Source: Afifellaceae bacterium
Lineage (GTDB): Bacteria; Pseudomonadota; Alphaproteobacteria; Rhizobiales; Afifellaceae
NCBI GenBank assembly: GCA_028284625.1
Contig: JANQRH010000026.1
Location: forward strand, 124,001 to 188,000
Reading direction: 5' to 3'
Length of the DNA: 64,000 nt
The translations under genes and the position numbers were made by a program. The notes under the pieces are model-generated. The model saw only the letters and a list, made by a program, of their open reading frames with translations. It was not told where the DNA came from and did not search any database. This document shows positions 4,415-53,293 of this stretch, piece by piece; the stretch's first letter is position 1; every line of letters begins with the position of its first letter.

Positions 4415-6808
4415 ATGAGCGACGCGCGCGTGCCCTTTCTGACAGCCTTGGAGAGGAAGGCACTGTGGCTGGCGACGTGGACCATCCACAACGCCAACCA
4501 CCTGCGGCCGAATGACGACGGCCTGAAGGTCGGCGGTCACCAGGCGTCGTCCGCGTCGCTGGCGACGATCATGGCCGTGCTCTACGGCGCGGTGCTAAGG
4601 CCGGAGGACCGCGTTGCGGTGAAGCCGCACGCCTCGCCCATCTTCCACGCGCTGCAATATCTGTTCGGCGAACAGACGCGCGAAAAGCTTGAGCGCTTCC
4701 GCGCTTATAAAGGCGCGCAATCCTATCCCTCGCGCACCAAGGACATCGACGACGTCGACTTCTCCACCGGCTCGGTCGGCCTCGGCGTGGCGCAGACTTT
4801 GTTCTCCTCGCTGGTGCAGGATTACGTGCGCGCCAAGGGCTGGTCGAGCCGCCCGGCGGGGCGCATGGTGGCGCTCGTCGGCGACGCGGAGATGGACGAG
4901 GGCAACATTTTCGAGGCGCTGCTGGAGGGCTGGAAGCACGGCGTCCAGAATTGCTGGTGGATCATCGACTACAACCGCCAGAGCCTCGACGCGGTGATCC
5001 GCGAGGGCCTGTGGGAGCGCTTTGAGACGGTCTTTCGTGGTTTCGGTTGGGATGTCGTCATCCTCAAATACGGTTCGCTGCTGAATGCTGCGTTTGAGGA
5101 GGAGGGCGGTGAGGCGCTGCGGGCGTGGATCGATCAATGCCCCAACCAGGTCTACTCGCTGCTTTGCTTCCAGGGTGGCGCGGCTTGGCGTCAGCGCCTT
5201 CTTGACGAGATCGGCGACCAGGGGCCGGTCACACGGCTGATCGAGCGCCGCTCGGATGAGGAGCTTGCCGCCTTGATGACAAACCTCGCCGGCCACGACA
5301 TCCCCACGCTGCTTGAAGCGTTCGAGGATGCCGCGTCCGACGAGCGGCCGAAATGCTTCATCGCCTACACGATCAAAGGCTTCGGCCTGCCGTTCCAGGG
5401 CCACAAGGACAACCATGCCGGCCTGATGACGACCGCCCAGATGGAGGCGTTCTGCGCGGCCATGGGCGTGGCGGAGGGCGAGGAATGGGCGCCTTACGCG
5501 GCCCTCGGCGTGGAGGAGCAGGCGTTCCGCGACTTTCTCTCAGAGGCGCCGTTCGTGAAGCAGGGCCGGCGGCGGCTGAAGGCGGCGCGCATTCCCGTGC
5601 CCGACACGCTGCCGCTTCCCACGGCGCAGACCATGTCCACGCAGCAGGGCTTTGGCCTGATCCTCTCCGACCTTGCGAAAGAAGACGATCCGCTCGTCGA
5701 CCGCATCGTCACCGCCTCGCCCGACGTGACCGTCTCCACCAATCTCGGCGGCTTCGTAAATCGCCGCGGGCTGTTCGCCAAGGACGCCATGGCCGACCAG
5801 TTTCGCAAGGAGCGCATCCCCTCAACGTTCACCTGGGAGTTCTCGCCGAAGGGACAGCACTTCGAGCTGGGGATCGCTGAGAGCAATCTCTTCATCCTCC
5901 TCTCAGCGCTTGGCCTGTCGCACACGATAGAAGGCGAGCGGCTCATCCCCATCGGCACGCTTTACGATCCGTTCATCCTGCGCGGCGCCGATCAGCTCAA
6001 CTACGCCTGTTATCAGGATGCCCGCTTCATTCTCGTGGCGACGCCGTCCGGCGTGTCGCTGGCGCCGGAAGGCGGCGCGCATCAATCGATCGGCACGCCG
6101 CTTCTCGGCATTGCACAGGACGGCCTCTCCGCCTTCGAGCCGGCCTATGTGGACGAAGTGGCGATCATCCTGCGCTGGGCGTTCGACTATCTGCAGCGCG
6201 ACGGGGAGGGCGATCCGGACGAAGAGACGTGGCTGCGCGACGAAACCGGTGGCTCCGTCTATCTCCGCCTCTCCACACGGCCGCTGGAGCAGATCGCGCG
6301 CGACGTATCGGAGCCGCTGGCGACGGACATCGTCAACGGCGCTTATTGGATGCGCCGCCCCGGCCCCAATGCGCAGGTGGTGATCGTCTATCAGGGCGTC
6401 GTTGCGCCCGAAGCCATCAATGCCGCCGGCCTGCTCGGCGAGGACCGCCGCGATATCGGCGTGCTCGCCGTGACCTCGGCCGATCGTCTCAACGCCGGCT
6501 GGCAGGCGGCGGAACGCGCGCGGCAGCGCGGTGTCGTGAATGCCATGAGCCACATCGAGCGGCTGCTTGCGCCGCTTTCGCGCGAATGCGGGCTGGTCAC
6601 CGTGATCGACGGCCACCCCGCGACTTTGAGCTGGCTCGGCGGCGTCTACGGTCACCGCACCAAGTCGCTCGGCGTGGAGCATTTTGGGCAGACCGGCGAC
6701 ATCGCCGACCTCTATCGCCATTACGGCATCGACGCCAACGCCATCGCGCACGCGGCGCAGGCCGTCACCGCCGGTCGCCCCGTGCGCCATCTCACGGCGC
6801 TGCCTTAA
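4415..6808 (+). CDS. transketolase / pyruvate dehydrogenase E1 component-like protein (homodimeric AceE type)
   Basis: ThDP-enzyme sequence ...GGHQASSASLATIMAVLYGAVLRPEDRVAVKPHASPIFHALQYLFG...GDAEMDEGNIFEALLEGWKH...; probable ATG at 4415 (MSDARVPFLTALERKALWLATWTI) rather than 4250. Confidence 0.8.
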   Translation: MSDARVPFLTALERKALWLATWTIHNANHLRPNDDGLKVGGHQASSASLATIMAVLYGAVLRPEDRVAVKPHASPIFHALQYLFGEQTREKLERFRAYKGAQSYPSRTKDIDDVDFSTGSVGLGVAQTLFSSLVQDYVRAKGWSSRPAGRMVALVGDAEMDEGNIFEALLEGWKHGVQNCWWIIDYNRQSLDAVIREGLWERFETVFRGFGWDVVILKYGSLLNAAFEEEGGEALRAWIDQCPNQVYSLLCFQGGAAWRQRLLDEIGDQGPVTRLIERRSDEELAALMTNLAGHDIPTLLEAFEDAASDERPKCFIAYTIKGFGLPFQGHKDNHAGLMTTAQMEAFCAAMGVAEGEEWAPYAALGVEEQAFRDFLSEAPFVKQGRRRLKAARIPVPDTLPLPTAQTMSTQQGFGLILSDLAKEDDPLVDRIVTASPDVTVSTNLGGFVNRRGLFAKDAMADQFRKERIPSTFTWEFSPKGQHFELGIAESNLFILLSALGLSHTIEGERLIPIGTLYDPFILRGADQLNYACYQDARFILVATPSGVSLAPEGGAHQSIGTPLLGIAQDGLSAFEPAYVDEVAIILRWAFDYLQRDGEGDPDEETWLRDETGGSVYLRLSTRPLEQIARDVSEPLATDIVNGAYWMRRPGPNAQVVIVYQGVVAPEAINAAGLLGEDRRDIGVLAVTSADRLNAGWQAAERARQRGVVNAMSHIERLLAPLSRECGLVTVIDGHPATLSWLGGVYGHRTKSLGVEHFGQTGDIADLYRHYGIDANAIAHAAQAVTAGRPVRHLTALP

Positions 6809-7473
6809 GCCGTCGCGCTGCGCTTCTCCAGATAGGCCACCAGCCGCACCAGCGGCCACAGGATGATTAGATAGATCGCCGCTGCTGCCAGCAGCGGACT
6901 GGGATTGGCCATCAGCGCCTGTGCGTCGAACGCCTGCTTCAAAAGATCGGGCATGGCGACGAATGATGCCAGCGACGTGTCCTTGACGATAGCGATGCAA
7001 TTGCTGGTCTGCGGTGGCGTGGCGATGCGGATGGCCTGCGGTATGACGACCTTGAAAAGCGTGACGGTGAACGGCAGGCCGAGCGACCGCGCCGCCTCGA
7101 ACTGCCCCGGCGGAATCGCCATGATCCCGGCGCGAAAAACCTCCGCCGTGAACGCCGCGAGCACGATGGAGAGCGCCAGCGTCGCTGACGTGAATGAGTT
7201 CAGCCGAATGCCGACAAAGGGCAGCGCGTAATAGATGACGATGAGCACGACCAGGATCGGCAGTGCCCGAAAGATGTCGATGAAGCCGATCGCGAGAAGG
7301 CGGATCGGCTTCGGCCCATAAAGCCGTCCGACGCAGATGAGAACGCCGGCCACTGTGCCGAGCACCATCGCCGTGACCGCAAGATAGAAGGTGTTGATCA
7401 GGCCGCGCCCCAGCATCGGCATGGCTCTGAGCATCACGTCGGCATTGAAAAAGGTATCGATCAGCCCCGACAC
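6805..7473 (-). CDS. polar amino acid ABC transporter permease (HisM/GltK-like)
   Basis: GLINTFYLAVTAMVLGTVAGVLI...EVFRAGIMAIPPGQFEAARSLGLPFTVTLFKVVIPQAIRIATPP (EAA motif). Confidence 0.9.
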   Translation of the reverse strand: MSGLIDTFFNADVMLRAMPMLGRGLINTFYLAVTAMVLGTVAGVLICVGRLYGPKPIRLLAIGFIDIFRALPILVVLIVIYYALPFVGIRLNSFTSATLALSIVLAAFTAEVFRAGIMAIPPGQFEAARSLGLPFTVTLFKVVIPQAIRIATPPQTSNCIAIVKDTSLASFVAMPDLLKQAFDAQALMANPSPLLAAAAIYLIILWPLVRLVAYLEKRSATA

Positions 7474-7579
7474 GGCAGACCTCCGGGTTCATTCAAAGCG
7501 TGAGGTTAGAGCGCTTTTTCAGAATCAGGGAGGGGCAGGCGCTCGCCGAGCGCTGAAGCGGCGCCGCTGCCCAAAGCGA

Positions 7580-7605
7580 AAGGGAGCGGCCGTCGCCGCT
7601 CCCTT
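7580..7605 (-). terminator. strong hairpin between binding-protein gene and permease gene
   Basis: Perfect 11-bp inverted repeat AAGGGAGCGGC-CGTC-GCCGCTCCCTT. No long U-tract, so it may act as an mRNA stabiliser or attenuator. Confidence 0.55.
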
Positions 7606-7633
7606 CAACGAACTTGGCAAATGAGACCGGTCG

Positions 7634-8428
7634 CTACTCAGCCTGCGGGATGGGCAGCACCTCCACGGTGGACGTGCCCTCATCAGGCGGCACGCCAAGC
7701 CACTTCTCGTGCAGCATGGCCATCGTGCCGTCCTGCTTAATCTCCGTGATGGCGTCGTTGACGCGCTCCAGGAGCGGTGATCCCTTGCCGAGCATGATGC
7801 CGTAACGGTCGTCCTGCTTGATGCGCTCAACCACGTGCATGGCCGGCATCTGCTTGAACGCGAACTGAAGGCCGGCGATGTCGCTGATGGCGCCGGCGAC
7901 GCGCCCGTTCTGGGTGTCGAGCAGAAGGTCTTGCTGCGTGTTGTAGCCCTTCATCTCGCTGAAGCCGTACGTCTCCATGTTCTCCTGCACCCAGGCTTCG
8001 CCGGTGGACGTGGAGAGTACGCCGACGGGCTTGCCCTTCATGTCGGCGAGGCTTGTCACGCCGGAATCCTTCGCTGAGGCAAGCGCCATGTCGCTGTCGT
8101 AATAGCCCTGCGTGAAGGATTGGTTCTGAAGGCGCTCGTTGGTGATGGTGATCGTTGAGATCGCCATATCGATGCGGCCGGAGCTGGTGGCGGCGAAAAG
8201 CGCCTGGAAGCCGAGATCCTGGATTTCAACTTCAGCGCCCGCGCGCTTGGCGATCTCTTGAACGAGGTCGACCTCAAAGCCCTCAAACGTCCCGTCTTCC
8301 TTCTTGTTCTCCCAAGGCGGATTGGCCGGATAGGCGCCGACTTGCCACGTCTCCGCCAGCGCCGATGCGCCTGACCCAAGAGCAACACTGGCCGCAATGA
8401 AGACCGATGCGAGCACTTTCAGTTTCAT
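7634..8428 (-). CDS. amino acid ABC transporter substrate-binding protein (family 3)
   Basis: MKLKVLASVFIAASVALGSGASALAETWQVGAYPANPPWENKKEDGTFEGFEVDLVQEIAKRAG...; signal peptide plus SBP_bac_3 motifs. Confidence 0.9.
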   Translation of the reverse strand: MKLKVLASVFIAASVALGSGASALAETWQVGAYPANPPWENKKEDGTFEGFEVDLVQEIAKRAGAEVEIQDLGFQALFAATSSGRIDMAISTITITNERLQNQSFTQGYYDSDMALASAKDSGVTSLADMKGKPVGVLSTSTGEAWVQENMETYGFSEMKGYNTQQDLLLDTQNGRVAGAISDIAGLQFAFKQMPAMHVVERIKQDDRYGIMLGKGSPLLERVNDAITEIKQDGTMAMLHEKWLGVPPDEGTSTVEVLPIPQAE

Positions 8429-8488
8429 TTCACCTCTCCCTGTTTGGGCCGCCTGAGCGGCACGGCCGGTCGCAGCCGGCACTTATCG

Positions 8489-9691
8489 TCACGCCATGGC
8501 GGTCGCGATGCGGTCGCAGGCCTCGGCAATCTGCTTGCTGTCGCGGCACACGCACATCCTTAAAAACGCCCTCGACGACTCGCCAAAGAGCCAACCCGGA
8601 GCAAGCCCGACCTGTGCTTTCTCCAGAATACGCATGCACGATTGCGTGGAATCGGCCTCGCCGGCAATCGAAAACACGACATACATGCCGCCGCGCGGCT
8701 TCGCCGGCAGGATCAGGCTGTTGGATGCCGCCAGCGCGGAATAGGCGGTCTCCACGCCTTCGCGGCTGCGCTCACGCACCTTTTTGACAAACGGCTCACC
8801 GTCGACGATCGCGGCGCGTGCGCCGGCCTGAATGCACGCCGCCGTTCCGCTGTTCATGTATTGCGTGATTGCCGCCAACGAACTCGCAACGGACGGCGGG
8901 TGCGTCAGCCAGCCGATCCGCCATCCGGTCATCGCCCAGGCCTTGGAGAAGCCGTTTACGCTGAGCACCAGGTCCTCCGGCTCCGCGAGCCGGATGACGG
9001 ATGGTGCGGCTTCGGCATCGAAGGCGAGGCGATTGTACATCTCGTCGCTGACGATCCACACGCCGGTGCGGCGGCTGAACTCAATCAGCGCTTCCAGTTC
9101 CGCGTCGCTCGCCGTCCAGCCGAGGGGATTGGACGGCGTTGAGAACATGATCGCCTTGGTGCGCGCGTCGCAGGCGTCGAAGAGCTTGTCGAGATCGAGC
9201 TTCCAATCGCCGTCGACATAGTCGAGCGCCACGGCGCGGGGGTCGCCGCCAGCGATCTGGATCGCCTGCTTGATGTTCGGCCATTGCGGCTCGACATAGA
9301 CGACGTTGCTGCCCTGCTCGACGATGAGCGACAGCGCCAGATGTACCGATTGCATGCCGCCCGGCGTGACCGTGGAGCGTAGCACCGGAATGTCGCGGCC
9401 ATGCAACCGCGTGAGATAGGCCGACAACGCCTCCGTCAAAGCCGGCAGGCCGCGCATGTCGGGCACATAGAATGTCATGCCCTGGTCGAGCGCATCTTTG
9501 GCGGCGCTGCGGATGAACTCCGGAGTGACGAGATCGCCCTCGCCGTACCACAGCGTGATGGCGTCGGGGATCGACTTCGCCCTGACCGCCAGCTCCGCGA
9601 TATTCTCCGTCTCCAGATCCATGATCTGCGGGCGGATGCGTTCGTAGGCTTGGGGCGTGGGTGTTCGGTCGGGCAGCGGCATCTTGATCAA
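8489..9691 (-). CDS. PLP-dependent class I/II aminotransferase
   Basis: ...FSTPSNPLGWTAS...IVSDEMYNRLAFD...LVLSVNGFSKAWAMTGWRIGW (PLP lysine motif). Confidence 0.92.
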   Translation of the reverse strand: MIKMPLPDRTPTPQAYERIRPQIMDLETENIAELAVRAKSIPDAITLWYGEGDLVTPEFIRSAAKDALDQGMTFYVPDMRGLPALTEALSAYLTRLHGRDIPVLRSTVTPGGMQSVHLALSLIVEQGSNVVYVEPQWPNIKQAIQIAGGDPRAVALDYVDGDWKLDLDKLFDACDARTKAIMFSTPSNPLGWTASDAELEALIEFSRRTGVWIVSDEMYNRLAFDAEAAPSVIRLAEPEDLVLSVNGFSKAWAMTGWRIGWLTHPPSVASSLAAITQYMNSGTAACIQAGARAAIVDGEPFVKKVRERSREGVETAYSALAASNSLILPAKPRGGMYVVFSIAGEADSTQSCMRILEKAQVGLAPGWLFGESSRAFLRMCVCRDSKQIAEACDRIATAMA

Positions 9692-9818
9692 TCCTGGAAA
9701 TCCGGTGGCCGGCGGATCGCCGTGGGTCTGTCATGCCGAGACAAAAGCGACAAAGTTCTGCGCGGCACTGAAGCCCGTCCTTTCACCGTTGCAATAACCT
9801 TCCAACAAAACTGTATCC

Positions 9819-9840
9819 ATTTCAAGCTTGAAGGTTTTAC
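9819..9840 (-). promoter_or_regulatory. candidate operator, motif copy A
   Basis: Minus strand reads AAAACCTTCAAGCTTGAAATGG (approx. coordinates); contains the perfect 12-bp palindrome TTCAAGCTTGAA at 9821-9832, in the divergent aminotransferase/GntR intergenic region. Confidence 0.5.
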
Positions 9841-9876: not shown

Positions 9877-10596
9877 ATGGGTTTGCCGGCGAAGCCGAAG
9901 CTGAGCGCCGGTGCGGCAACGTTATCCGGCGTGTCGCCCGCCAGCCTTCGCGCGCAGATCTACGCCGACCTGCGCCACCGATTGCAGCGCGCCGCGTTCG
10001 GCGCCGGCCACCGCTTTGTCGACACGGAGGTCGCCGCCGCGTTCGGCACATCGCGTATGCCGGCGCGCGAGGCGCTGATGGCGTTGGCTTCGCAGGGCTT
10101 TCTGCACCAGACAAGCCGCGGCTTCGTGGTGCCTGAGCTTTCCCCCGAAGACATCCGCGACATCTTTGCGGTGCGCAAGCTTCTGGAACCGGAAGCGGCC
10201 GCGCTTGCCTCGCGTCGTCTGGACGAAGACGGCATTACCGCCATCAAAGCCGCACGCGACATGGCGCGCGCCGCCTGCGCGGCGGACAATATCGACGCGC
10301 TGATGGAATCCAACATCGCCTTCCGCGCCGCGTGGCTTTCCGCAGTCAGCAATCGCCGCCTCGTGGAAACGATCGAGAGCTTCCGCGACCACATTCAAAC
10401 CGTCCGCACCGCAACGCTCCATCGCCCCGAGACCCGTATTGTGGTCTTGAGCGGGATTGAGGATCTGACTGCTGCTTTTAGTAAGCGCGACGCAGAAGCC
10501 ATGCGCGCCCGCATGCTGGCTTTCCTGAACGCAGCCGAACGCGAGTTCTTCAACGCGGTGCACGATGATCTGACAGCCGCGGGAGAGCGCCAATGA
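9877..10596 (+). CDS. GntR family transcriptional regulator (FCD type)
   Basis: LRAQIYADLRHRLQRAAFGAGHRFVDTEVAAAFGTSRMPAREALMALASQGFLHQ... wHTH, followed by an FCD-like C-terminus. Confidence 0.9.
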   Translation: MGLPAKPKLSAGAATLSGVSPASLRAQIYADLRHRLQRAAFGAGHRFVDTEVAAAFGTSRMPAREALMALASQGFLHQTSRGFVVPELSPEDIRDIFAVRKLLEPEAAALASRRLDEDGITAIKAARDMARAACAADNIDALMESNIAFRAAWLSAVSNRRLVETIESFRDHIQTVRTATLHRPETRIVVLSGIEDLTAAFSKRDAEAMRARMLAFLNAAEREFFNAVHDDLTAAGERQ

Positions 10597-11678: not shown

Positions 11679-11686
11679 GATGGACA

Positions 11687-11716
11687 ATCAGGCCGGCCCG
11701 CTTGGGCCTGCCTGAT
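11687..11716. other. intergenic hairpin
   Basis: ATCAGGC-CGG-CCC-GCTT-GGG-CCT-GCCTGAT inverted repeat between the LLM and aldolase-cyclase genes. Confidence 0.45.
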
Positions 11717-11733
11717 ATGAGGGGAGTATCTGC

Positions 11734-13299: not shown

Positions 13300-13337
13300 G
13301 AGCTGTGCTTTGAAGGGGGCCTCATCAAGGTCCGCTG

Positions 13338-14424: not shown

Positions 14425-14440
14425 GCGGCCTGTAGGCCGC
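14425..14440. terminator. short bidirectional hairpin between convergent genes
   Basis: GCGGCCT-GT-AGGCCGC inverted repeat directly between convergent stop codons. Confidence 0.4.
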
Positions 14441-15858
14441 TAAACCACGCGCCCCGGATTCAGAATACCGGCCGGGTCGAGCGTCGCTTTCAGGCGCCGC
14501 ATCAATTCAATGGCCGCGTCCGATCGGCTGAGCGGCAGATAGGCCTTCTTGAGTTGGCCGATGCCGTGCTCCGCACTGACCGCCCCGCCGACGCGCCCGA
14601 CGGCCTCGTAGACGACCTCGTCGATCGCCGTCTTGGTTGCCGCATCCGGTTTCGTGTCGAAGCCGACGACGAAGTGCAGATTGGCGTCGCCGATATGCCC
14701 GTAGGTCTGGCGCACCACGTCGGGCCAGCGCTCGCCGATTTCTTTATTGATCGCGGCTGCGGTTTCCACGATCTGGCCGATCGGCACCGAAACGTCGAAA
14801 CTGGCCACGCCGCCAAAAGCTTGCCGATAGGTCGCCGGCCCCTCGTCACGTGGTGCCCAGATGCGCCGAGCCTGATCCACGGACGTGGCGATCACCGCAT
14901 CGGTGACCCATCCGGCCTCAAGACCCTCCGCCAGGAATGCCTCTAGCCGCGCGTTCTCTTCCGCCTCGTCATTGCCACGAGTCTCGATGATGACGGACAT
15001 CGGCGGCACCGCCTCAAGCGGCAGATCAAAGCCGCCCTTCGTCGTCATGTAGGTCAGGAAGTCCGACCACATCGCCTCAAAGGCCGATAGCGACGGCCCA
15101 AGCGACCGTCTTGCCGCGGCAAGCGCCGTGGTGACTTCGGCGGGGCCGGCGAGCGCGACAAGCGCCGTCGCCACAGCGGGGCGATGCGGCGAAAGCCTCA
15201 GCACCGCGCGCGTCACGACGCCGAGCGTGCCTTCCGTGCCGATGAAGAGCTGCTTCAAATCATAGCCGCTGTTGTTCTTCACCATGTTGTTCATATCGGC
15301 GAGCACGGTGCCGTCGGCGAGCACGGCTTCCAGGCCCAGCACATGCACGCGCGTCATGCCCGTCCCGATCACACGAATGCCGCCGGCATTGGTGCCGATC
15401 ACGCCGCCGATCGTGCAGGAGCCGCGCGCCCCGAGGTCGATGCCAAGCTCCAGATCGTGCTCAAGCGCGGCCTGTTGCGCCGCCTCTAGCGTTGTGCCTG
15501 CCTTCACGACCATCGTGGCGGCGAGCGGATCGACGGCCTCCACGCCGGCAAGCTTCTCAAGCGACAGCGCGATCTCGTCCCTGCGGCAGGAGGCGCCGCC
15601 GGCCAGCCCCGTGAGCCCGCCCTGCACAACGATCCTCTGTCCTCGTTCGGTGCAGAGCGCCAGGCATTTTGCGACGCCTTCCGTGTCCGCCGGCTTGAGG
15701 AGCAGCACCGGCGCGGCTTCGCTCCAGCCGGTCCAGTCCGCCGCGCGGGCGGACAGCACATCGGCGTCGCTGATCACATTCGCCGCGCCGATGAGCGACG
15801 AGAAATCGCCTGCCGTCAGGTGCGAAGGCCCGGAAGGGGCGAGGGAGGATTGCGCCAT
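14440..15858 (-). CDS. FAD-binding oxidase, GlcD / D-lactate dehydrogenase-like
   Basis: ...VVQGGLTGLAGGASCRRDEIALSLEKL...LGARGSCTIGGVIGTNAGGIRVIGTGMTR...; C-terminal ...SAEHGIGQLKKAYLPLSRS. Confidence 0.9.
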   Translation of the reverse strand: MAQSSLAPSGPSHLTAGDFSSLIGAANVISDADVLSARAADWTGWSEAAPVLLLKPADTEGVAKCLALCTERGQRIVVQGGLTGLAGGASCRRDEIALSLEKLAGVEAVDPLAATMVVKAGTTLEAAQQAALEHDLELGIDLGARGSCTIGGVIGTNAGGIRVIGTGMTRVHVLGLEAVLADGTVLADMNNMVKNNSGYDLKQLFIGTEGTLGVVTRAVLRLSPHRPAVATALVALAGPAEVTTALAAARRSLGPSLSAFEAMWSDFLTYMTTKGGFDLPLEAVPPMSVIIETRGNDEAEENARLEAFLAEGLEAGWVTDAVIATSVDQARRIWAPRDEGPATYRQAFGGVASFDVSVPIGQIVETAAAINKEIGERWPDVVRQTYGHIGDANLHFVVGFDTKPDAATKTAIDEVVYEAVGRVGGAVSAEHGIGQLKKAYLPLSRSDAAIELMRRLKATLDPAGILNPGRVV

Positions 15859-15866
15859 GATTCGCG

Positions 15867-16424
15867 TCAGGCGGCCGCCCCAGTATCGGATCGCGCCGAC
15901 ACGCCACGCGGATGCGCCGCGCCGAGCACCGACGATTTAAGCTCGCCGAGGCGCGTCCAGAGCGCCTTCTGTTCGCTCTCGCTGAAGCCGGCAAACAACT
16001 CGCCGATCCACTCCGCGTGCGCCACCGCCATCTCCGCGAAATCCTCGCGGCCCTTCTCCGTCAGCCGCACGCGCACCGCGCGCCGATCGGCCTCAGAGAT
16101 GTTGCGCTCAATCAGTCCCGCTTGCACCAGCCGTTCTACCAGCCCGGTGACGTTGCCGTTGGAGACCATCATACGGCGCGACAGTTCCCCGAGCAGCAAT
16201 CCATCCTCGAAGCGCTCAAGCTGCGCCAACAGATCAAAGCGCGGCAGCGTCGTGTTGAAGCGCTCGCGCAGCCGCCGCCGCATCTCGACTTCGATGAGAT
16301 TGGTGCAAGCCAGGAGCCGCAGCCAGAGCCTGAGCTCCGTGGCGTGGTCCTGAGGCCGCTCCACCACCTTCGACTCCGCGTCGAGATGGCGGTCGGACTT
16401 GGCAATCTCCCGGATCGGCGGCAC
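15867..16424 (-). CDS. MarR family transcriptional regulator
   Basis: ...TTLPRFDLLAQLERFEDGLLLGELSRRMMVSNGNVTGLVERLVQAGLIERNISEADRRAVRVRLTEKG; MarR wHTH with DRR wing. Confidence 0.92.
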   Translation of the reverse strand: MPPIREIAKSDRHLDAESKVVERPQDHATELRLWLRLLACTNLIEVEMRRRLRERFNTTLPRFDLLAQLERFEDGLLLGELSRRMMVSNGNVTGLVERLVQAGLIERNISEADRRAVRVRLTEKGREDFAEMAVAHAEWIGELFAGFSESEQKALWTRLGELKSSVLGAAHPRGVSARSDTGAAA

Positions 16425-16553
16425 GGACTCCCCGCTGTCACTGGCGTTGTTCAGGCGCGCGCCGTGCCGTGCCCGATGACACGTCGCACAATTGCTTCAT
16501 AGTTAAACAGTCACGGCACCCGCCACAAGCTTGCCGCGCCGATTTCGGCAACC

Positions 16554-17396
16554 TCAGGTCGCTGCCAGCCAGTCGGGATCGATCTCCGGCAGCGGGATCG
16601 CCGCCTTCAGCTCGGCGGTATAGGGATGCTCCGGATGATCGAAGAGGGGGCCGGTCGGCCGGTTCTCAAGGATACGCCCGCCGCGCATGACGATCACACG
16701 GTCGCACAGGCGACGCACGACAGAAAGGTCGTGGCTGATGAAGAGCACCGTCAGCTTGAGCTCGCTCTTCAGGCGTTCCAGCAGGCTCAGAATTTGCGCC
16801 TGACTGGAGACGTCGAGCCCGGAGACGATCTCATCGGCGAGCACGAAGCGCGGCTTCAGCGCGATCGCGCGCGCGATCCCGACGCGCTGCCGCTGGCCGC
16901 CGGAAAGCTCGTGCGGATAGCGTGCTGAAAAAGCCGGCGGCAGGCCGACTATCTCCAGCGTGGCCGCTGCAAGGTCATGCGCCTCGCTTGCCGATGTCGC
17001 CACGCCGTGGAAGAGAAGCGGACGCGCAATCGTTCGCCCGACGGTCAGGCGCGGATTGAGCGACGACAGCGGGTCCTGAAAGATCACCTGCAGATCGCGA
17101 CGAAGCGGCCGCAGCGCATTGTCGTCGCGATGCGTGATGTCCGAGCCTGCGAAGTGGATCGCTCCGTCCGTCGGATCGATCAGCCTGACCAACGTCCGCC
17201 CGAGCGTTGTCTTGCCGGAACCCGACTCGCCCACCACGCCGACGACCTCGCCTTCGGCAACCTTAAAGCCGATATCGTGGAGAATCTCTACCATCGGCCG
17301 CGGCCTGAAGAGAGGCTTGCGGTTGGGATCGGGGAGGGCGACGCAGAGACCCTCCACACTGAAGAGTGGCGCGCTCATCGTCCCGCCTCCGACCAA
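16554..17396 (-). CDS. oligopeptide/dipeptide ABC transporter ATP-binding protein (DppF/OppF-like)
   Basis: Walker A GESGSGKTT, signature LSGGQRQRVGIARAIALKP; Dpp/Opp C-terminal extension. Confidence 0.93.
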   Translation of the reverse strand: MVGGGTMSAPLFSVEGLCVALPDPNRKPLFRPRPMVEILHDIGFKVAEGEVVGVVGESGSGKTTLGRTLVRLIDPTDGAIHFAGSDITHRDDNALRPLRRDLQVIFQDPLSSLNPRLTVGRTIARPLLFHGVATSASEAHDLAAATLEIVGLPPAFSARYPHELSGGQRQRVGIARAIALKPRFVLADEIVSGLDVSSQAQILSLLERLKSELKLTVLFISHDLSVVRRLCDRVIVMRGGRILENRPTGPLFDHPEHPYTAELKAAIPLPEIDPDWLAAT

Positions 17397-18262
17397 GCCG
17401 CGTCGGCGCGCCTGATCTCCTGCCAGGTCGATTCAATCACCTCAGCCGGCACCGGCAGAAGCGATTCCTCCGGCCGATCGTAGCGTGGCGTCGCCGCGAT
17501 CAGCGCAGCTGTGTAAGGATGCTTCGGCTGAGCAAAAAGGCTCTCTGCATCGGTATCCTCCACCACCGAGCCGCCGAAGAGCACCGTCACCTTGCGGCAG
17601 ATCTTGGCGACGACGCCGAGGTCGTGCGTGACGAAAAGGAGCGCCGTGCCGTGGCGCTCCTGCATCTCGGCGATGAGCCGCAGGATCTGCTTCTGCACCG
17701 TGACATCGAGCGCCGTGGTCGGCTCGTCCGCCACGATCAGCTTCGGCTCCGCGGCAAAGGCGGAGGCGATCAAAACGCGCTGGCGCATGCCGCCGGAAAG
17801 CTGGTGCGGATAGGAGGCGAGCACGCGCTCCGGATCAGAGATGTGCACTTCGCCCAGAAGCTGAAGCGCGCGGTCGCGCGCCGCGCCGCGGCTGAGGCCA
17901 AGGATGGCGGTGAGCCGGTCGGTCATTTGGCCGGTGATGCGCCGCACCGGATTGAGCGCGGTGAGCGGGTCCTGCGGGATAAGGGCGGAGGTATGCGCGA
18001 TGAGCTGCCGCTGGTCGCGGTGGCGCATGGTCAAAATGTCCTGGCCGCCGAGCCGCACCGAACCGGCAAGCACCGTGACGGCATGTGGCAGGATGTCGAA
18101 GATCGTCTTGCCGATCATCGTCTTGCCGGCGCCGCTTTCGCCGACCAGCCCGCGCACCTCGCCCGGCGCGACGTTCAAGCTGACGCTCCGCAGGAGCCGG
18201 TGACTCGAATCCGCTTTCAGCGCGATGGAGAGATCGCTGATGTCGAGAAAGGGCGCGCTCAT
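17375..18262 (-). CDS. oligopeptide/dipeptide ABC transporter ATP-binding protein (DppD/OppD-like)
   Basis: Probable start MSAPFLDISDLSIALK; GESGAGKT, LSGGMRQRVLIASAFAAEPKLIVADEPTTALDV. Confidence 0.92.
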   Translation of the reverse strand: MSAPFLDISDLSIALKADSSHRLLRSVSLNVAPGEVRGLVGESGAGKTMIGKTIFDILPHAVTVLAGSVRLGGQDILTMRHRDQRQLIAHTSALIPQDPLTALNPVRRITGQMTDRLTAILGLSRGAARDRALQLLGEVHISDPERVLASYPHQLSGGMRQRVLIASAFAAEPKLIVADEPTTALDVTVQKQILRLIAEMQERHGTALLFVTHDLGVVAKICRKVTVLFGGSVVEDTDAESLFAQPKHPYTAALIAATPRYDRPEESLLPVPAEVIESTWQEIRRADAAWSEAGR

Positions 18263-19110
18263 TGCAGCACCGGATCGAAGCGGTCTTTCAGCCCCTCGCC
18301 GAACTGCCCGAAGGCAAGCACGGTGAGGAAAAGCACGATGAGTGGGAACACGAGCACCCACCAGGCGAAGTGAATGATCGTGCGGCCTTCCGCGATCATG
18401 CCGCCCCAGGTCGGGTCGTCGGTGGAGATGGAGAGGTTCACGAAGGAGAGGATCGCCTCAACGATGACGGCAATCCCCATCTCCAGCGACAACAACGCCA
18501 CGATGGCCGGCAGAACGTTGGGCAGCACTTCCTTCACGAGAATGGCGGCGCGCGTCAGGCCCACAATGTGGGCACTGTCGACGTAATCCATACGCCGCTG
18601 CACCAGCGCCTCCGCGCGCACCACGCGGCAGAAGCGGATCCAGTCGATGACGATGATGGCGAGGATCACCGAATGCAGGCCGGTGCCGATCACAGCCACG
18701 AGCAGGATCGCAAAGAGCACCGGCGGGAATGCCATCCACACATCGACGATCCGCGATACGATCTGATCGACCCAGCCGCCGTAGTAGCCGGCAAGCAGAC
18801 CCAGCACCGAACCGATGATGCAGGCGACGGGTGCGGCTACGAACGCCACGGTAAGCGCCACGCGGCTGGCATAGATAATGCGCGAGAGCACATCGCGGCC
18901 GAGCCCGTCCGTGCCCAGCAAATAGCCTGGCTCCGCGCCGGCCATCCAGGCCGGCGGCAGACGCTGCAGGAGCAGGTCCTGCGCCAGCGGATCGTGCGGC
19001 GCGATGAACGGCGCAAAGATCGCCGTAATCACCACCAGCCCCAGCCATCCGCCGGAGAGGATCAGCCGCCACGAGCGTCGGCGTCGCCGCGTGAGGACGG
19101 CCTCAGCCAT
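18259..19110 (-). CDS. peptide-type ABC transporter permease (DppC/OppC-like)
   Basis: PFIAPHDPLAQDLLLQRLPPAWMAGAEPGYLLGTDGLGRDVLSRIIYASRVAL is typical of DppC; start at MAEAVLTRRRRRSW. Confidence 0.92.
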   Translation of the reverse strand: MAEAVLTRRRRRSWRLILSGGWLGLVVITAIFAPFIAPHDPLAQDLLLQRLPPAWMAGAEPGYLLGTDGLGRDVLSRIIYASRVALTVAFVAAPVACIIGSVLGLLAGYYGGWVDQIVSRIVDVWMAFPPVLFAILLVAVIGTGLHSVILAIIVIDWIRFCRVVRAEALVQRRMDYVDSAHIVGLTRAAILVKEVLPNVLPAIVALLSLEMGIAVIVEAILSFVNLSISTDDPTWGGMIAEGRTIIHFAWWVLVFPLIVLFLTVLAFGQFGEGLKDRFDPVLQ

Positions 19111-20113
19111 GGCGGAGCCGCGGATTGAGGATGGCGTAAAGCAGGTCGATCGCCAGATTGATGCCGACAAAAAGCACGGCGAAGAGAATGACGATGCCCT
19201 GAATGAGCGGCAGGTCGCGATTGATCACTGCATCGATGGCGAGATTGCCGAGGCCTTCGTAGGAGAAGATGCGCTCGATGATGACCGTGCCGCCGATGAG
19301 GAACGTCAGCTGCACGCCGGTCAGCGTCAGCGTCGGCAAAAGCGCGTTGCGCATAGCATCGTGCAGGATGACGCGGCTTTCGGAGAAGCCCTTGGTGCGC
19401 GCCAGCATGACGTAGTCCTGGCGGATGGTCTCCTTCAGCGACGCTTTGAGGAGCTGCGCGATCACCGCCGCAAGCGGCAGCGCCAAGGCAACCGCCGGCA
19501 TGATCATGTGGTCGAGCAGGTTGAGCGTGATGTCGAGCCGCAGCCTGAGCAGGCTTTCCACCAGGTAGAACTGGGTCACGAAGGGCAGGTCGAGCGTCGG
19601 CGACACGCGGCCAGAAATCTCAAAGATCGGCCAGGCAACGCCGAGCGTCAGGATCAGCGCCAGGCCCCAGAGAAAATCCGGCACCGACAGCGCAATGCCG
19701 TTCACCACATCGACGCCAGCCTCGGCTGGTGTCTCGCGCCAGCGCGTTGCGACGAAGGCAAGCGCCGCGCCCAGCACGATTGCGATCCCGAGCGCCAGCA
19801 GGCTGAGCTCAAGCGTGGCGGGCAGGCGGCCGAGCACAATGGTGAGCACGTTCTGGCGAAGCGAGATCGAGGTGCCGAAATCGCCCTGCAGCACGCCGCC
19901 GAGCCAGATGACGAATTGCTCCGGAATCGAGCGGTCGAGGCCGTAAAGTGCGGTGAGGCGGGCGATGTCCTCCTCAGACGCGCCCGGCGGCAGCATCATG
20001 GCGATTGGGTTGCCCGGCGCGACGCGGATGACCACGAACACGATCACCGCCACGCCGAACAGCGTGACGAGCGTGGTCGCGATCCGCGTGGCGATGGCGC
20101 GCAGGATGTTCAT
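19103..20113 (-). CDS. peptide-type ABC transporter permease (DppB/OppB-like)
   Basis: VVIRVAPGNPIAMMLPPGASEEDIARLTALYGLDRSIPEQFVIWLGGVLQGDFGTSI; start at MNILRAIATRIATTLV. Confidence 0.92.
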   Translation of the reverse strand: MNILRAIATRIATTLVTLFGVAVIVFVVIRVAPGNPIAMMLPPGASEEDIARLTALYGLDRSIPEQFVIWLGGVLQGDFGTSISLRQNVLTIVLGRLPATLELSLLALGIAIVLGAALAFVATRWRETPAEAGVDVVNGIALSVPDFLWGLALILTLGVAWPIFEISGRVSPTLDLPFVTQFYLVESLLRLRLDITLNLLDHMIMPAVALALPLAAVIAQLLKASLKETIRQDYVMLARTKGFSESRVILHDAMRNALLPTLTLTGVQLTFLIGGTVIIERIFSYEGLGNLAIDAVINRDLPLIQGIVILFAVLFVGINLAIDLLYAILNPRLRHG

Positions 20114-20173
20114 ATCCGTTGCGCCGTCGCCCGATCTCGATGGGGAAAGCCCGGCATCGCAACCCCCTTTATC

Positions 20174-20270
20174 GTCATGCCCGGACCTGATCCGAGCATC
20201 CATTCCGTAGCGCTTGGCCGATCGAAACCGTCACGGATTGGATTGCCGGGTCAAGCCCGACAATGACGAC
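20174..20270. repeat. Rhizobiales-type repetitive palindromic intergenic element
   Basis: GTCATGCCCGGACCTGATCCGAGCATCCA ... TGGATTGCCGGGTCAAGCCCGACAATGACGAC; long imperfect inverted repeat upstream of the dppB-like gene. Confidence 0.7.
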
Positions 20271-20309
20271 AGGGATAGGCTCTCGCCGGGCTTGTTCGGG
20301 CGTGCCGAA

Positions 20310-21842
20310 CTAGCCCGCCGGCTTCATCAGGTTCGGCTGCACGGCGCCTGAGACGTGCGGCGTGACATCGACACTGTCGGCAAACACGATCGGCTGCACA
20401 TATTGCAGGAGCGGAATGACCGCGCCCTGTTCCGCGATGTGTTTATCGACCGCCTTGTAGCCGGCGATGCGTTTTTCCTCGTCCGGCTCGCCCCAGAGCG
20501 GGCCGATCATGCCCATGATGTCTTCGCCGTCCCACACCGAATGCGGCGAGGGGCCGAACATGGCAAAGCCAGTGGATGTCGACGGGTCGCCGATGGAGTT
20601 GCCCCAATTGTAGAACGCCGCGGGAGCCAGCGTGTCGGCGGCGCGCAGCTCGAAGTGCTTGGCGATCTCGTAGACTTCGATCTCCGCCTCAATGCCGACC
20701 TTGCGCCACATGCCGACGATCGCCTGGATCATCTCAAAATCCTTCGGCTTGAAGCCGCGTGTCGTCTGGATCTTGAAGCTGACCGGATTGTCGGTCGAGT
20801 AGCCGCTTGCCGCGAGCAGTTCCGTGGCTTTGTCCGGATCGTAGGGCACTGAGATCGACGGATCGTAGGCGTCATATTCCGGCGTCTGCAATGTGTCGAT
20901 CTTCACGCCGTAGCCATTGAGCAACCGATCGATGAGGAGCTGCTTGTCGATGGCGTGGCTGGCGGCAAGCCGCACGTTCTTGTCGGTCATCGGCTCAACA
21001 TCGTTGATGAAGATCATCGCGATGTCGGAGACCGGCGTGGTGACGCCCTTCAGGCCGGGCTTCGCCTTCAGCCGGTCGAACTCCTCATAGGGAATGTCGA
21101 AGACCACGTGACTCTTGCCGGAATCGATCTCCGCCACGCGGCTGGTTGCGTCCGGCACGAACTTGATGACCACCGACTTGAAGGCCGGCGCGCCGCCCCA
21201 ATAGCCGTCATGCGCCTCAAGCCGGAGAAAGGCGTTCCTCTCAAACTGCACGACCTTGTAGGGACCGGAGCCGACCGGCGCGTTCTCAAAACCTTCCGCG
21301 CCCACGCTCTCGTAATAGGCCTTGGGCAGCACGTAGCCAGTGAGGAAGCCCATCCACTTGAAGAGCGTCGGCTCAAACTCCTTCACATCGGCGGCGATTG
21401 TGTTGCCGTCGATGGAGAAGTTGCCGATCTTGCCCCACACGAACTGGATCGGGTTGCCGGTATCGGGATTACCCGCGCGCTCCAGCGACCACACCACGTC
21501 CTCCGGCGTCACCGGCGAACCGTCATGCCAGGTCGCGCCTTCGCGAACGCTCATCTCAATCTTGGAGCGATCGTCGTTCCAGCCCCATTCCGTCAGGAGC
21601 CCGGGGACCAGATCGAGGTTCGGCGCCTGCGCGATGTATTGGTCGAAGACCGACTGATAGATGCCCTGGATCGTCGGGTTGACCGCCGACAGACCCACCG
21701 TCGGATCGAAGGACGGCAAATTGACGTTATAGGCGATGGTGAGGTCGTCGCCCTGCGCGAACGCCCGGAGCGGCAGCCCCGCGGTGCTCACCAGTGCCGC
21801 CCCGGCGGCGCCGCGCTTCATGAGATCGCGTCGTGTCAGCAT
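20310..21842 (-). CDS. ABC transporter substrate-binding protein (family 5, peptide/opine type)
   Basis: MLTRRDLMKRGAAGAALVSTAGLPLRAFAQGDDLTIAYNVNLPSFDPTVG...TWHDGSPVTPEDVVWSLERA; Tat-type signal. Confidence 0.93.
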   Translation of the reverse strand: MLTRRDLMKRGAAGAALVSTAGLPLRAFAQGDDLTIAYNVNLPSFDPTVGLSAVNPTIQGIYQSVFDQYIAQAPNLDLVPGLLTEWGWNDDRSKIEMSVREGATWHDGSPVTPEDVVWSLERAGNPDTGNPIQFVWGKIGNFSIDGNTIAADVKEFEPTLFKWMGFLTGYVLPKAYYESVGAEGFENAPVGSGPYKVVQFERNAFLRLEAHDGYWGGAPAFKSVVIKFVPDATSRVAEIDSGKSHVVFDIPYEEFDRLKAKPGLKGVTTPVSDIAMIFINDVEPMTDKNVRLAASHAIDKQLLIDRLLNGYGVKIDTLQTPEYDAYDPSISVPYDPDKATELLAASGYSTDNPVSFKIQTTRGFKPKDFEMIQAIVGMWRKVGIEAEIEVYEIAKHFELRAADTLAPAAFYNWGNSIGDPSTSTGFAMFGPSPHSVWDGEDIMGMIGPLWGEPDEEKRIAGYKAVDKHIAEQGAVIPLLQYVQPIVFADSVDVTPHVSGAVQPNLMKPAG

Positions 21843-21926
21843 AACTCTCTCCCTGTCTCGCGGCGTGAGGCCGTCGTCACCGTTTTTTTGCCGGCATCAG
21901 CCGCCATTTGGGGCCGGCGATCGAAG

Positions 21927-21947
21927 ATATTTCAAGATTAGAGTTTT
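21927..21947 (-). promoter_or_regulatory. candidate operator/promoter, motif copy D
   Basis: Minus strand AAAACTCTAATCTTGAAATAT, 17/21 identical to copy B; upstream of the Dpp-like operon. Confidence 0.35.
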
Positions 21948-21969
21948 GCGCGTTCGCGGGTCAAGCAGA

Positions 21970-24522: not shown

Positions 24523-24523
24523 G

Positions 24524-26110
24524 ATGGCCGCAACCGACGCCGCTGCCGATTATGTCATCGTCGGAAGCGGCATCAACGGCCTGACCTGCGCGGCGCTTCT
24601 CGGTAAAAGCGGACGCCGCGTCGTCGTGCTGGAGCGCGAGGCGGTCGCCGGCGGCTGCATGCGCACCGACGCCATAACCGCGCCGGGCTACATCCACGAC
24701 GTGATGGCAACCACCTTCGTGCTCTTCATCACGTCGCCGGCCTTCGGCAAACTTGGGCCCGACCTTGCGCGTCACGGCCTTGAGTTCGCCCACACCCAGC
24801 ATCCGACCGGCGTGCTGCTTCCCGACGGTCGAAGCATCGTCCTCTCCACCGATCGCGCCGCCAATGTCGCGGCCTTGAATGCCGTCATGGAAGGGGAGGG
24901 CGACCGCTTCGCCGCTGATGTCGACGTGGTCGGCCGTGATGCGCCGTTGCTCTTCGGGCTGCTCGGCGGAGCGTTGTGGACGTGGGGCACGGCCAAGCTG
25001 CTTTATGGCGAGACGCGTCGCCGCGGCTTGCGCGGGCTTGCCGCGCGCATCGGCGAATCCTTCCTCTCCGGCCGCGGATGGCTGGAGACACGCTACGAGT
25101 CGGAGCTGACGCGCGCGCTCTTCGCACCATGGGTGCTGCATGCCGGCCTTGGGCCGGAAAGCACGTTCGCCGGCGAGATCGGCCGCGTCATCGCCTTTGC
25201 GCTGGAGGCCGCCGGCGCACCGGTGGTGAAAGGTGGATCGGCCAACGCCGTCGCCGCCTTCACCGCGCTCATCGAGGAGCAGGGCGGCCAAGTGCGTACC
25301 GGTGCCGATGTCTCTGAAATCATCGTCTCTGACGGACAGGCGAGCGGCGTGCGGCTTGCCGAGGGCGAGACCATCAATGCGGCGCGCGGCGTGATCTGCT
25401 CCGTCACGCCGACGCAGCTCTACGAACGGCTCCTGCCGGACAAAGTCGCTGCTGGCGATGCTCCGGAGCGCACCAAAAACTATCGCTACGGCAAGGGCAA
25501 CATGCAGATCCACTACGCCCTCAAGGCCCCACCCAGATGGCGCACGCCGGGCTTGAGCGATGTGGCGCTCCTGCATCTCACGCCGGGCCTCGATGGCGTC
25601 TCCAAGGCGGTCAACGAATGCGAGCGCGGCATGCTGCCGGCCGTGCCGACGATCTGCGTTGGCCAGCCGCATGCGCTTGATCCGTCGCGCTGTCCTGAAG
25701 GCGCGGCCATCCTATGGGTGCAGCTTCCCGAAGCGCCGCGCATCATCAAGGGCGACGCCGCCGGCGCGATCGAGGCCGGCGACGGCCAATGGACGGAAGC
25801 CATCCGCGAGGCGTTTGCCGACCGCGTCGAGACGGTCCTCGCCGGCCACATCGAGGGCTTTCGCGACAATGTGGTCGCGCGCCGCGCCTATTCCCCGGCC
25901 GACCTTGAAGCGCTCAACGTCAACCTTGTCGGCGGCGATCCCTATGGCGGCCTCTGCTCCGTCGATCAGTTCTTCATCTGGCGGCCCTTCGCTGACAGCG
26001 TGAACCACACGACGCCCATCCGCGGCCTCTACCAGATCGGCGCCTCCACCCATCCCGGACCCGGCCTTGCCGGTGGCTCCGGCTTCGCCCTGGCGGAGCG
26101 CCTGGCATGA
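24524..26110 (+). CDS. NAD(P)/FAD-dependent oxidoreductase (phytoene desaturase/PYROXD2-like)
   Basis: DYVIVGSGINGLTCAALLGKSGRRVVVLEREAVAGGCMRTDAITAPGYIHD; C-terminal GLYQIGASTHPGPGLAGGSGFALAERLA. Confidence 0.9.
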   Translation: MAATDAAADYVIVGSGINGLTCAALLGKSGRRVVVLEREAVAGGCMRTDAITAPGYIHDVMATTFVLFITSPAFGKLGPDLARHGLEFAHTQHPTGVLLPDGRSIVLSTDRAANVAALNAVMEGEGDRFAADVDVVGRDAPLLFGLLGGALWTWGTAKLLYGETRRRGLRGLAARIGESFLSGRGWLETRYESELTRALFAPWVLHAGLGPESTFAGEIGRVIAFALEAAGAPVVKGGSANAVAAFTALIEEQGGQVRTGADVSEIIVSDGQASGVRLAEGETINAARGVICSVTPTQLYERLLPDKVAAGDAPERTKNYRYGKGNMQIHYALKAPPRWRTPGLSDVALLHLTPGLDGVSKAVNECERGMLPAVPTICVGQPHALDPSRCPEGAAILWVQLPEAPRIIKGDAAGAIEAGDGQWTEAIREAFADRVETVLAGHIEGFRDNVVARRAYSPADLEALNVNLVGGDPYGGLCSVDQFFIWRPFADSVNHTTPIRGLYQIGASTHPGPGLAGGSGFALAERLA

Positions 26111-26123
26111 GGGGGCAGGGTCT

Positions 26124-26627
26124 ATGCTGAAGACCGGCGCTGCGTCCAAGCCGTCCAGCGAGGCGATGTCGAAGCGCGTTCCCGCGCTCGCCGAGATCGG
26201 CCTCGACCATTTCGCACCCTATCTCTTGAACCGTGTCTCGGCGCGCTGGAATGCCGACCTTCAGGTGCGCATGCGCGAGCATGGCCTCAACACCATCCAG
26301 ATGCGCACGCTCGCCGTGCTCTCCGTCATCCCGAACGCCACGGTGAACGAGCTCGCTGTCTATACCGTCACGGAGCAATCGACGATGAGCCGCGCGCTCG
26401 ACGGTATCGTGCGAGAAGGACTTGTGCGCCGCCAGCAGCGCCCCGGCGATGCACGCGTGCGCGAGGTGCATCTGACCGACGCCGGGCGCGACGTCTTCCG
26501 GCGTTTCTGGCCGGCGATGTACGCCGAATATCAGCGGATGTTTGAAGGCATCGACGCCGAGGAATGGGATGGCTTTGTCGCCACCCTGAACAAGGTTCTC
26601 TTGAACATCCGCCGCAACGACCTGTAG
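26124..26627 (+). CDS. MarR family transcriptional regulator
   Basis: ...MRTLAVLSVIPNATVNELAVYTVTEQSTMSRALDGIVREGLVRRQQRPGDARVREVHLTDAG; start MLKTGAASKPSSEAMSKRV. Confidence 0.9.
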   Translation: MLKTGAASKPSSEAMSKRVPALAEIGLDHFAPYLLNRVSARWNADLQVRMREHGLNTIQMRTLAVLSVIPNATVNELAVYTVTEQSTMSRALDGIVREGLVRRQQRPGDARVREVHLTDAGRDVFRRFWPAMYAEYQRMFEGIDAEEWDGFVATLNKVLLNIRRNDL

Positions 26628-29504: not shown

Positions 29505-29508
29505 AATC

Positions 29509-37314: not shown

Positions 37315-39606
37315 ATGCGGGTCGTGTGTCTCGGCGGTGGCCCCGCCGGGCTCTATTTCGCGATCTCTATGAAGCTCAGGAACCCCGGCCATGAGGTCGT
37401 GGTGATCGAGCGCAACCGCCCCGACGACACGTTCGGCTGGGGCGTGGTCCTCTCCGACGAGACGCTCGACAATTTGGCGAAGAACGATCAGCGCAGCGCC
37501 ACGGCGATCCGCTCGCATTTCGCCTATTGGGACGACATCGCCGTCCATTATCGCGGCACCTGCACACTCTCCAGCGGCCACGGCTTCTGTGGCATCGGCC
37601 GCAAGACGCTGCTGATCCTGCTGCAGCAGCGGGCGTACGAGCTCGGCATTGAGATGCGCTTTGAGACGGAGGTGGAATCCGCCGCCGATCTTGCGCGCGA
37701 CTATGATCTCGTAGTCGCCTCGGACGGCCTCAACTCGCGCGTGCGCACCGAGTTCGCCGAGCACTTCAAGCCGGAGATCGATGTCCGGCCGTGCAAGTTC
37801 GTGTGGCTCGGCACGCACCAGAAATTCGACGACGCCTTCACTTTCATATTCGAAGAAACCGAGCACGGCTGGATCTGGGCGCACGCCTATCAGTTCGATG
37901 ACGACACCGCGACCTTCATCGTGGAATGCACGGAGACGACCTGGGCGAAGTTCGGCTTCGGCGAGATGACCCAAGAGGAATCGATCGCCACCTGCGAGCG
38001 CATCTTCAAGGATCATCTCGGCGGTCATCATCTGATGTCGAACGCGCGCCACATTCGCGGCTCCGCGTGGATCAACTTCCCCCGCGTGCTCTGCGAGCGT
38101 TGGCATCACGAAAACGTCGTGCTGATGGGCGACGCCGCAGCGACCGCGCATTTCTCCATCGGCTCCGGCTCGAAGCTGGCGATGGAAAGCGCCATTGCGC
38201 TTGCCGATTACGTGCATTCGGAGTCGACGCTGGAAGCGGCATTTGAGAAATACGAGGACGAGCGCCGCGTTGAGGTGCTGCGCCTGCAATCGGCGGCGCG
38301 CAATTCCATGGAATGGTTTGAGGAGGTGGAGCGCTACCTCGACCTCGACCCGGTGCAGTTCAACTACTCACTGCTTACCCGCTCGCAGCGCATCAGCCAC
38401 GAGAATCTGCGCCTGCGCGACAAGGATTGGCTGGAGGGCGCGGAAGCGTGGTTTCAGCGCCGCGCCGGCGCGACGGAGAACATCGCCCGCGCGCCGATGT
38501 TCGCGCCGTTCAAGCTGCGCGACATGGAGCTCAAGAACCGCGTCGTGGTTTCGCCGATGGCGCAATACAAGGCCGTCGACGGCTGCCCGACGGATTGGCA
38601 CTTCGTGCATTACGGCGAGCGCGCCAAGGGCGGCGCCGGCCTCATCTATGTGGAGATGACCTGCGTCAGTCCCGAAGGCCGCATCACGCCGGGCTGCACG
38701 GGCCTCTACGCGCCCGAGCACGAAGCGGCGTGGAAGCGCATTGTGGATTTCGTGCACGCTGAGACCGACGCGAAAATCTGCTGCCAGATCGGCCATTCTG
38801 GCGCCAAGGGATCAACCCAGCTCGGCTGGGAGGAGATGGACGCGCCGTTGCCGGACGACAACTGGCCGCTCGTCTCCGCATCCGACGTGCCATGGTCGGC
38901 GGCGAACCAGACGCCGAAGCGCATGGACCGCGACGACATGGACCGCATCACGGCTCAATTCGTCGCGGCTGCCGAAATGGCGGCGCGCGCCGGCTTCGAC
39001 ATGCTGGAGCTGCATTGCGCGCACGGCTATCTGCTTTCGTCTTTCATCACGCCCGTCACCAATACGCGCGACGACAAGTATGGCGGCAGCCTTGAGAACC
39101 GCATGCGCTATCCGCTGGAGGTGTTCCACGCCGTGCGCGCGGTGTGGCCCGACGAGAAGCCGATTTCGGTGCGCATCTCCGCCAACGATTGGGTCGGCGA
39201 CCGCGGCGTCACGCCGCCGGAGGCGGTGGAGATTGCCGGTCACTTACAGGCGGCCGGCGTCGACATTTGCGATGTGTCTGCCGGCCAGACATCGACGGAG
39301 GCGAAGCCGGTCTACGGCCGTATGTTCCAGACGCCGTTCTCCGACCGCATCCGTAACGAGACCGGCTTGGCGACCATGGCCGTCGGCAATATTTACGAGC
39401 CGGATCACGTCAATTCGATTCTGATGGCCGGCCGCGCCGATCTCGTGTGCCTGGCGCGCCCGCACCTCGCCGATCCCTATTGGACGCTGCATGCCGCCGC
39501 CGAACTCGGTGACCGCATCGAAGCCTGGCCGCCGCCTTATTGGGCCGGCCGCGATCAGCTGTGGCGGCTTGCCGAGCGTCGCGACAGCGCCGTGTTGAAG
39601 GTGTGA
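37315..39606 (+). CDS. bifunctional FAD monooxygenase / OYE-like FMN reductase (2-aminobenzoyl-CoA monooxygenase/reductase or salicylyl-CoA 5-hydroxylase type)
   Basis: N-terminal [52 protein letters not shown]-terminal [16 protein letters not shown]...[30 protein letters not shown]...[37 protein letters not shown]. Confidence 0.92.
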
Positions 39607-39608
39607 CC

Positions 39609-40382: not shown

Positions 40383-40409
40383 ACGCCACAGCCGAGCGGA
40401 GGCGATCCG

Positions 40410-42364: not shown

Positions 42365-42365
42365 G

Positions 42366-50761: not shown

Positions 50762-50764
50762 GGG

Positions 50765-53220: not shown

Positions 53221-53240
53221 AAAAGCTTTAAGCTGAAAAT
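53221..53240 (+). promoter_or_regulatory. degenerate candidate operator, motif copy C
   Basis: AAAAGCTTTAAGCTGAAAAT, 16/20 identical to copy B, in the divergent liv operon / 53294 gene intergenic region. Confidence 0.3.
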
Positions 53241-53293
53241 ATATCACCTCGCAGCGCCGAAAACGCTGGAGAAACGGTGAGATTGGAGCGGAC

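Follow-up and report, generated by a model that had tools for sequence, protein, structure and literature searches.

Two copies of a palindrome as predicted docking sites for one MarR-type regulator of scattered anthranilate-like aromatic uptake and breakdown genes in an Afifellaceae bacterium

The 12-bp palindrome TTCAAGCTTGAA occurs twice in the window (the 64,000-nucleotide stretch of Afifellaceae bacterium DNA that was analysed as a whole), and both copies, judged from comparisons of sequence and gene context, almost certainly serve one regulator of the MarR type as docking sites, from which it would jointly control scattered genes for the uptake and breakdown of anthranilate-like aromatic compounds. 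In its full form this reading is very probable: the palindrome would be the operator of a dimeric MarR protein of the type linked to abm, the gene of a 2-aminobenzoyl-/salicylyl-CoA monooxygenase, represented here by the protein M1, which would repress four transcription units until an aromatic intermediate becomes available, with a probable additional GntR input at copy A. The features concerned are collected in Table 1; the membership of the peptide-ABC operon listed there is inferred from gene spacing.

Table 1. Positions in the window of the predicted operators, the candidate regulators and the transcription units
Feature	Position	Strand	Context or basis
Operator A (predicted), TTCAAGCTTGAA	9821..9832; 24-mer 9815-9838	.	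Intergenic, flanked by the aminotransferase and GntR genes, which are divergent; matrix score 24.6
Operator B (predicted), TTCAAGCTTGAA	37250..37261; 24-mer 37244-37267	.	Matrix score 36.5; conservation upstream of abm
Operator C (predicted), AGATATTTCAAGATTAGAGTTTTG	21925..21948	.	About 80 bp before the SBP_bac_5 gene heading the peptide-ABC/MarR operon; matrix score 23.0
Operator D (predicted), AAAAGCTTTAAGCTGAAAATATAT	53221..53244	.	Immediately before the branched-chain-type ABC operon; matrix score 26.5
Weak candidate site	16490..16513	.	Directly upstream of the MarR gene; matrix score 11.4; block kept in the sister species (G001)
Candidate FCD-GntR half-operator ACTGTATCCA	9810..9819	.	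Abuts operator A
Aminotransferase (8489-9691), SBP_bac_3 (7634-8482) and amino-acid ABC permease (6805-7473) genes	6805..9691	-	
FCD-family GntR regulator	9877..10596	+	Divergent from the aminotransferase gene; FCD E 1e-17, GntR E 5e-10
Peptide-ABC operon	14440..21842	-	SBP_bac_5, ABC ATPases (oppD/oppF-like), MarR M1, FAD oxidase; head at 21842
MarR M1, proposed regulator of A-D	15867..16424	-	Pfam MarR; tree; recognition helix
Second MarR, M2, IadR-type; rejected as regulator of A-D	26067..26627	+	
abm operon	37315..45147	+	2-aminobenzoyl-/salicylyl-CoA monooxygenase, SDR, enoyl-CoA hydratase, acyl-CoA dehydrogenase, benzoate-CoA-ligase type, Rid, SDR
Branched-chain-type ABC transporter operon	49817..53189	-	

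The two exact copies of TTCAAGCTTGAA in the window are also the only two in the 3.92-Mb genome, where the reversed control sequence has none; in the window, dinucleotide shuffles give a chance expectation of 0.04 even when one mismatch is allowed. A sequence-only covariance model of the site (R1), built on 62 sites from other genomes and run over the whole genome at E ≤ 10, returned copy B (E 0.0017) and copy A (E 0.06) and nothing else. A preliminary description of this DNA had proposed a local regulon from the pair and had named a genome-wide frequency at background level as grounds for abandoning it; the count gives no such grounds. Its recorded agreement of the two 22-mers at 20 of 22 bases and the perfect palindrome within both were borne out on recount, as was the span of copy B (37244-37265), while that of copy A, given as 9819-9840, contained a slip of 2 bp and should read 9817-9838. 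In the sister species (G001), the same two copies lie 27.2 kb apart in an equivalent gene context. Agreement at 20 of 22 bases over the core is also what a recent DNA duplication or the remnant of a mobile element would leave behind, but the similarity between the copies ends at the operator, the match with the sister species at copy B sets in again precisely at the operator, and each copy is conserved separately in its own gene context across genera, which contradicts duplication; such an origin is scarcely credible.

Copy B lies 54 bp ahead of the abm start codon. The abm protein scores 1324.5 bits over its whole length with model NF006101, against a cut-off of 1078, and belongs to that family; the choice between 2-aminobenzoyl-CoA and salicylyl-CoA as its substrate is beyond what sequence decides. 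The phylogenetic footprinting that had been recommended as a check was carried out at this gene, with 80 related abm loci from Rhizobiales, Rhodobacterales, other alphaproteobacteria and gammaproteobacteria such as Halomonas and Billgrantia, in which the palindrome was sought up to 250 bp upstream of abm. It is present with at most two mismatches in 71 of the 80 and exactly in 14, against a mean of 2.5 of 80 for ten other, scrambled palindromes, the 80 loci representing fewer than 80 independent events as several come from near relatives (Mesorhizobium). On this footprint, the palindrome upstream of abm is a conserved predicted operator. In 42 of the 71 sites a second palindrome is found exactly 14 bp away, with almost none at other offsets. 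The position of the site, 50-150 bp before start codons, and its A+T-rich flanks would suit a promoter or a structural DNA element in which the palindrome arose by chance; this is highly improbable for a symmetric 12-bp core that is kept across orders and in gammaproteobacteria, is so often doubled at one fixed offset and is linked to one MarR family. The doubled operators with their fixed 14-bp offset at these abm promoters (loci L008-L087) differ from copies A and B of the window, each of which is single. On the megaplasmid of Ruegeria pomeroyi (L233), the abm cluster adjoins genes for tryptophan 2,3-dioxygenase and R-bodies (RebB).

Two further sites emerge when the search is made less strict. 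R1 did not report C and D genome-wide; as it is stricter than a weight matrix and too strict for these two sites, they were scored with a GC-corrected matrix, checked against permuted-column controls and built from abm sites alone (63 training sites, one of which is a copy B, that of the sister species, which had been excluded from R1). In the window, this matrix matches four sites at scores above 20, namely A, B, C and D (Table 1), and permuted matrices give 0-1 matches at such scores per 1.67 Mb. A genome-wide search limited to a 16-bp pattern with at most three mismatches ranks A-D as its four top scorers; all the remaining matches with 1-3 mismatches, including that at C20:116319, 7.7 kb to the left of the window, score 15 or less and were rejected. 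The 24-mers of A, B, C and D are all identical in the sister species, in surrounding DNA that is about 90% identical, with operator C in a block that is itself identical. Operator A has one poor flank and scores 24.6, the median being 36, and operators C and D differ from the core in 2-3 places. A weak match to the matrix (11.1) also occurs at 45967-45990, before a DAO-type oxidase gene (46065-47360).

The conservation of copy A was followed through the aminotransferase operon, which is preceded in relatives by the site at a similar distance, about 110-150 bp upstream. Among 17 aminotransferase orthologues, 10 have a site scoring at least 20, against 0 of 11 distant aminotransferases. In three genomes (G143, G213 and G232), the genes of the aminotransferase operon, a luciferase-like monooxygenase, abm, a MarR gene and peptide-ABC genes lie together in one cluster, and a site precedes each of three units; no other finding argues more strongly than this joint cluster for a connection between the two clusters that lie apart in the window. 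In the window itself, genes for the GntR protein, a luciferase-like monooxygenase, an HpcH/cyclase fusion protein and an agmatine-deiminase-like protein follow one another at 9877-14423.

The GntR gene adjoins copy A, and the regulator that it encodes might be taken as the owner of the palindrome there, the match at copy B then being a coincidence or a second GntR target. Against this, the palindrome persists ahead of abm in species where no such GntR is encoded close by (just 4 weak matches among 80 loci) and ahead of the aminotransferase gene where none adjoins it (L138-L142). FCD regulators favour GTATAC-like cores, and an element of this kind, G(T/G)ATAC, lies beside the palindrome rather than inside it. 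Always spaced by 2 bp, it accompanies the palindrome in all 8 of the 8 relatives that have both the site and an FCD-GntR gene next to it, in 0 of the 6 whose site lacks such a neighbour and at 0 of the 71 abm sites; Fisher's test for the association with the adjacent gene gives p 0.0003, a value that is overstated since several rows share a genus (about 7 genera in all). Ownership of the palindrome by the GntR protein is thus very unlikely indeed. As a GTATAC-like element adjoins the MarR site solely at loci with a neighbouring FCD-GntR gene, a composite operator combining the two is suggested at copy A, in which the FCD-GntR protein probably binds the second, abutting element and not the shared palindrome. 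The window copy of this element is imperfect (GTATCC).

As to the protein that would read the palindrome, a MarR gene of one type adjoins abm at about 76 of the 80 loci, its usual place being between the genes for the SDR and the enoyl-CoA hydratase, and at two of the loci without it the contig breaks off. No MarR gene of this type stands beside abm in the window or in the sister species; on this comparison, the genus of this organism has lost it. A profile of the abm-linked MarRs run against the organism's own genome finds one strong match, M1 (E 4e-54), the next best standing at 8e-8. M1 has a MarR winged-helix domain (PF12802, E 1.5e-12; PF01047, E 1.2e-11, above the curated cut-offs) and is about 36-47% identical to the abm-linked proteins. 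Its recognition helix, VSNGNVTGLVERL (VSNGNVTG), follows the VSNGN(V/I)TG pattern of the abm-linked group; in position it departs from that group, its gene lying 21 kb away and outside the abm operon. In a tree, M1 falls into a clade separate from, and related to, the abm-linked MarRs, with mixed support (99 bootstrap, 45 SH-aLRT); given this and the degree of identity, the exact specificity of M1 could differ from theirs. Members of the M1 clade are found next to the operator elsewhere: inside an abm-like cluster with the site in two genomes (G138 and G027), and adjacent to, or not far from, an abm-like gene preceded by a site in Mesorhizobium amorphae, Sinorhizobium meliloti AK21 and Aminobacter SR38, where the locus is near a kynureninase gene. 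Overall, 21 of 28 M1-clade loci have the site, against 0.1 for permuted matrices. Both MarR types coexist in some species (Breoghania), so that each may have had targets of its own until one of them disappeared. Among solved structures, 3BOQ, a MarR protein in the PDB with no known function and no known ligand or DNA complex, comes closest both to M1 (E 7e-23) and to the abm-linked MarRs (E 6e-36); the idea that 3BOQ is the abm-linked MarR of Ruegeria pomeroyi itself was rejected on comparison.

The preliminary description had offered the MarR at 15867 or that at 26124 as the regulator. The former, M1, is retained as the sole abm-type MarR in the genome and for the place of its clade beside the operator in other species. 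The latter, M2, is likewise a MarR encoded within the same island, but it is of another type, matching the auxin-binding IadR of Bradyrhizobium (7KYM, E 3.6e-31); its recognition helix, TEQSTMSRALDGI, is unrelated to that of M1, and where the operator occurs at an abm locus, the MarR gene there is usually of the abm-linked type and not of the M2 type. Binding of M2 to the shared operators is very unlikely. The genes around M2 (23734-31065) encode, in a row, isatin hydrolase (matching 4J0N, E 4e-124), an FAD oxidoreductase, the IadR-type MarR, a glyoxalase-fold protein and IorAB-like proteins; the same set, without the glyoxalase, occurs in Alloyangia pacifica near a gene of the indole-monooxygenase family. 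This content suggests a branch from indole or isatin to anthranilate, perhaps directly to anthraniloyl-CoA, that would operate without a Rieske dioxygenase. No protein of the IadDE Rieske dioxygenase type (PF00848) was found in the genome or in the sister species, and for this reason the island was not classed among the iad auxin loci in the sense of PMC9613470, despite its isatin hydrolase, IorAB and IadR-type MarR. The ZnuABC genes (31067-34856) and a LipJ-like gene (35733-37242), further along the window, are missing from the corresponding place in the sister species.

In the proposed mechanism, dimers of M1 would occupy operators A-D in the absence of inducer and would thereby repress the abm operon, which would serve the breakdown of anthranilate via 2-aminobenzoyl-CoA, together with the aminotransferase/amino-acid ABC operon, the peptide-ABC operon to which the M1 gene itself belongs and the branched-chain-type ABC operon; the closeness of the sites to start codons fits repression. 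Release would fall to an aromatic intermediate, for which anthranilate and 2-aminobenzoyl-CoA are the likeliest candidates, and at copy A the FCD-GntR protein would probably add a second input through the abutting GTATAC-like element. One dimeric regulator with a local regulon, as first proposed for the two copies, is well supported by the footprinting in relatives, the two extra sites in the window and the comparison of gene clusters.

The overall design is familiar; CouR and HpaR-like proteins are members of the MarR family that repress the catabolism of aromatic compounds. In auxin loci, IacR and IadR (PMC9613470) likewise pair a dimeric winged-helix protein with an operator that lies at a catabolic promoter in the same island, an arrangement that is predicted here; in comparison with them, 21 kb separate the M1 gene from the putative main target of its product, M1 appears to control four separate units, and both the operator sequence and the target pathway (2-aminobenzoyl-CoA) are different. 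The site and its regulator appear to be undescribed: the literature searched contained no paper naming the palindrome with a MarR protein and nothing relevant on a regulator of salicylyl-/aminobenzoyl-CoA genes. The iad loci hold a second MarR, IadR2, without known ligand or DNA site, which corresponds to MarR_50 of Variovorax and MarR_Bj2 of B. japonicum and does not bind auxin (PMC9613470). On this description, M1 resembles IadR2 in being a second MarR in an island that would make anthranilate. It may be ventured, as a tentative and rather doubtful extension, that the abm-type MarRs are the orphan IadR2 of auxin loci and the palindrome their site, coupling the lower anthranilate-CoA pathway to whichever upper pathway feeds it (auxin, indole/isatin or kynurenine), with a MarR/FCD-GntR composite operator of fixed geometry at some targets.

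For a widespread pathway, the breakdown of anthranilate via 2-aminobenzoyl-CoA, the analysis provides a predicted operator sequence, a candidate regulator gene and a list of putative targets, and for auxin catabolism it makes the role of the second, non-auxin-binding MarR directly testable. It also indicates that a regulon may outlast the loss of the regulator gene beside its main operon, a remote relative being here the only remaining candidate.
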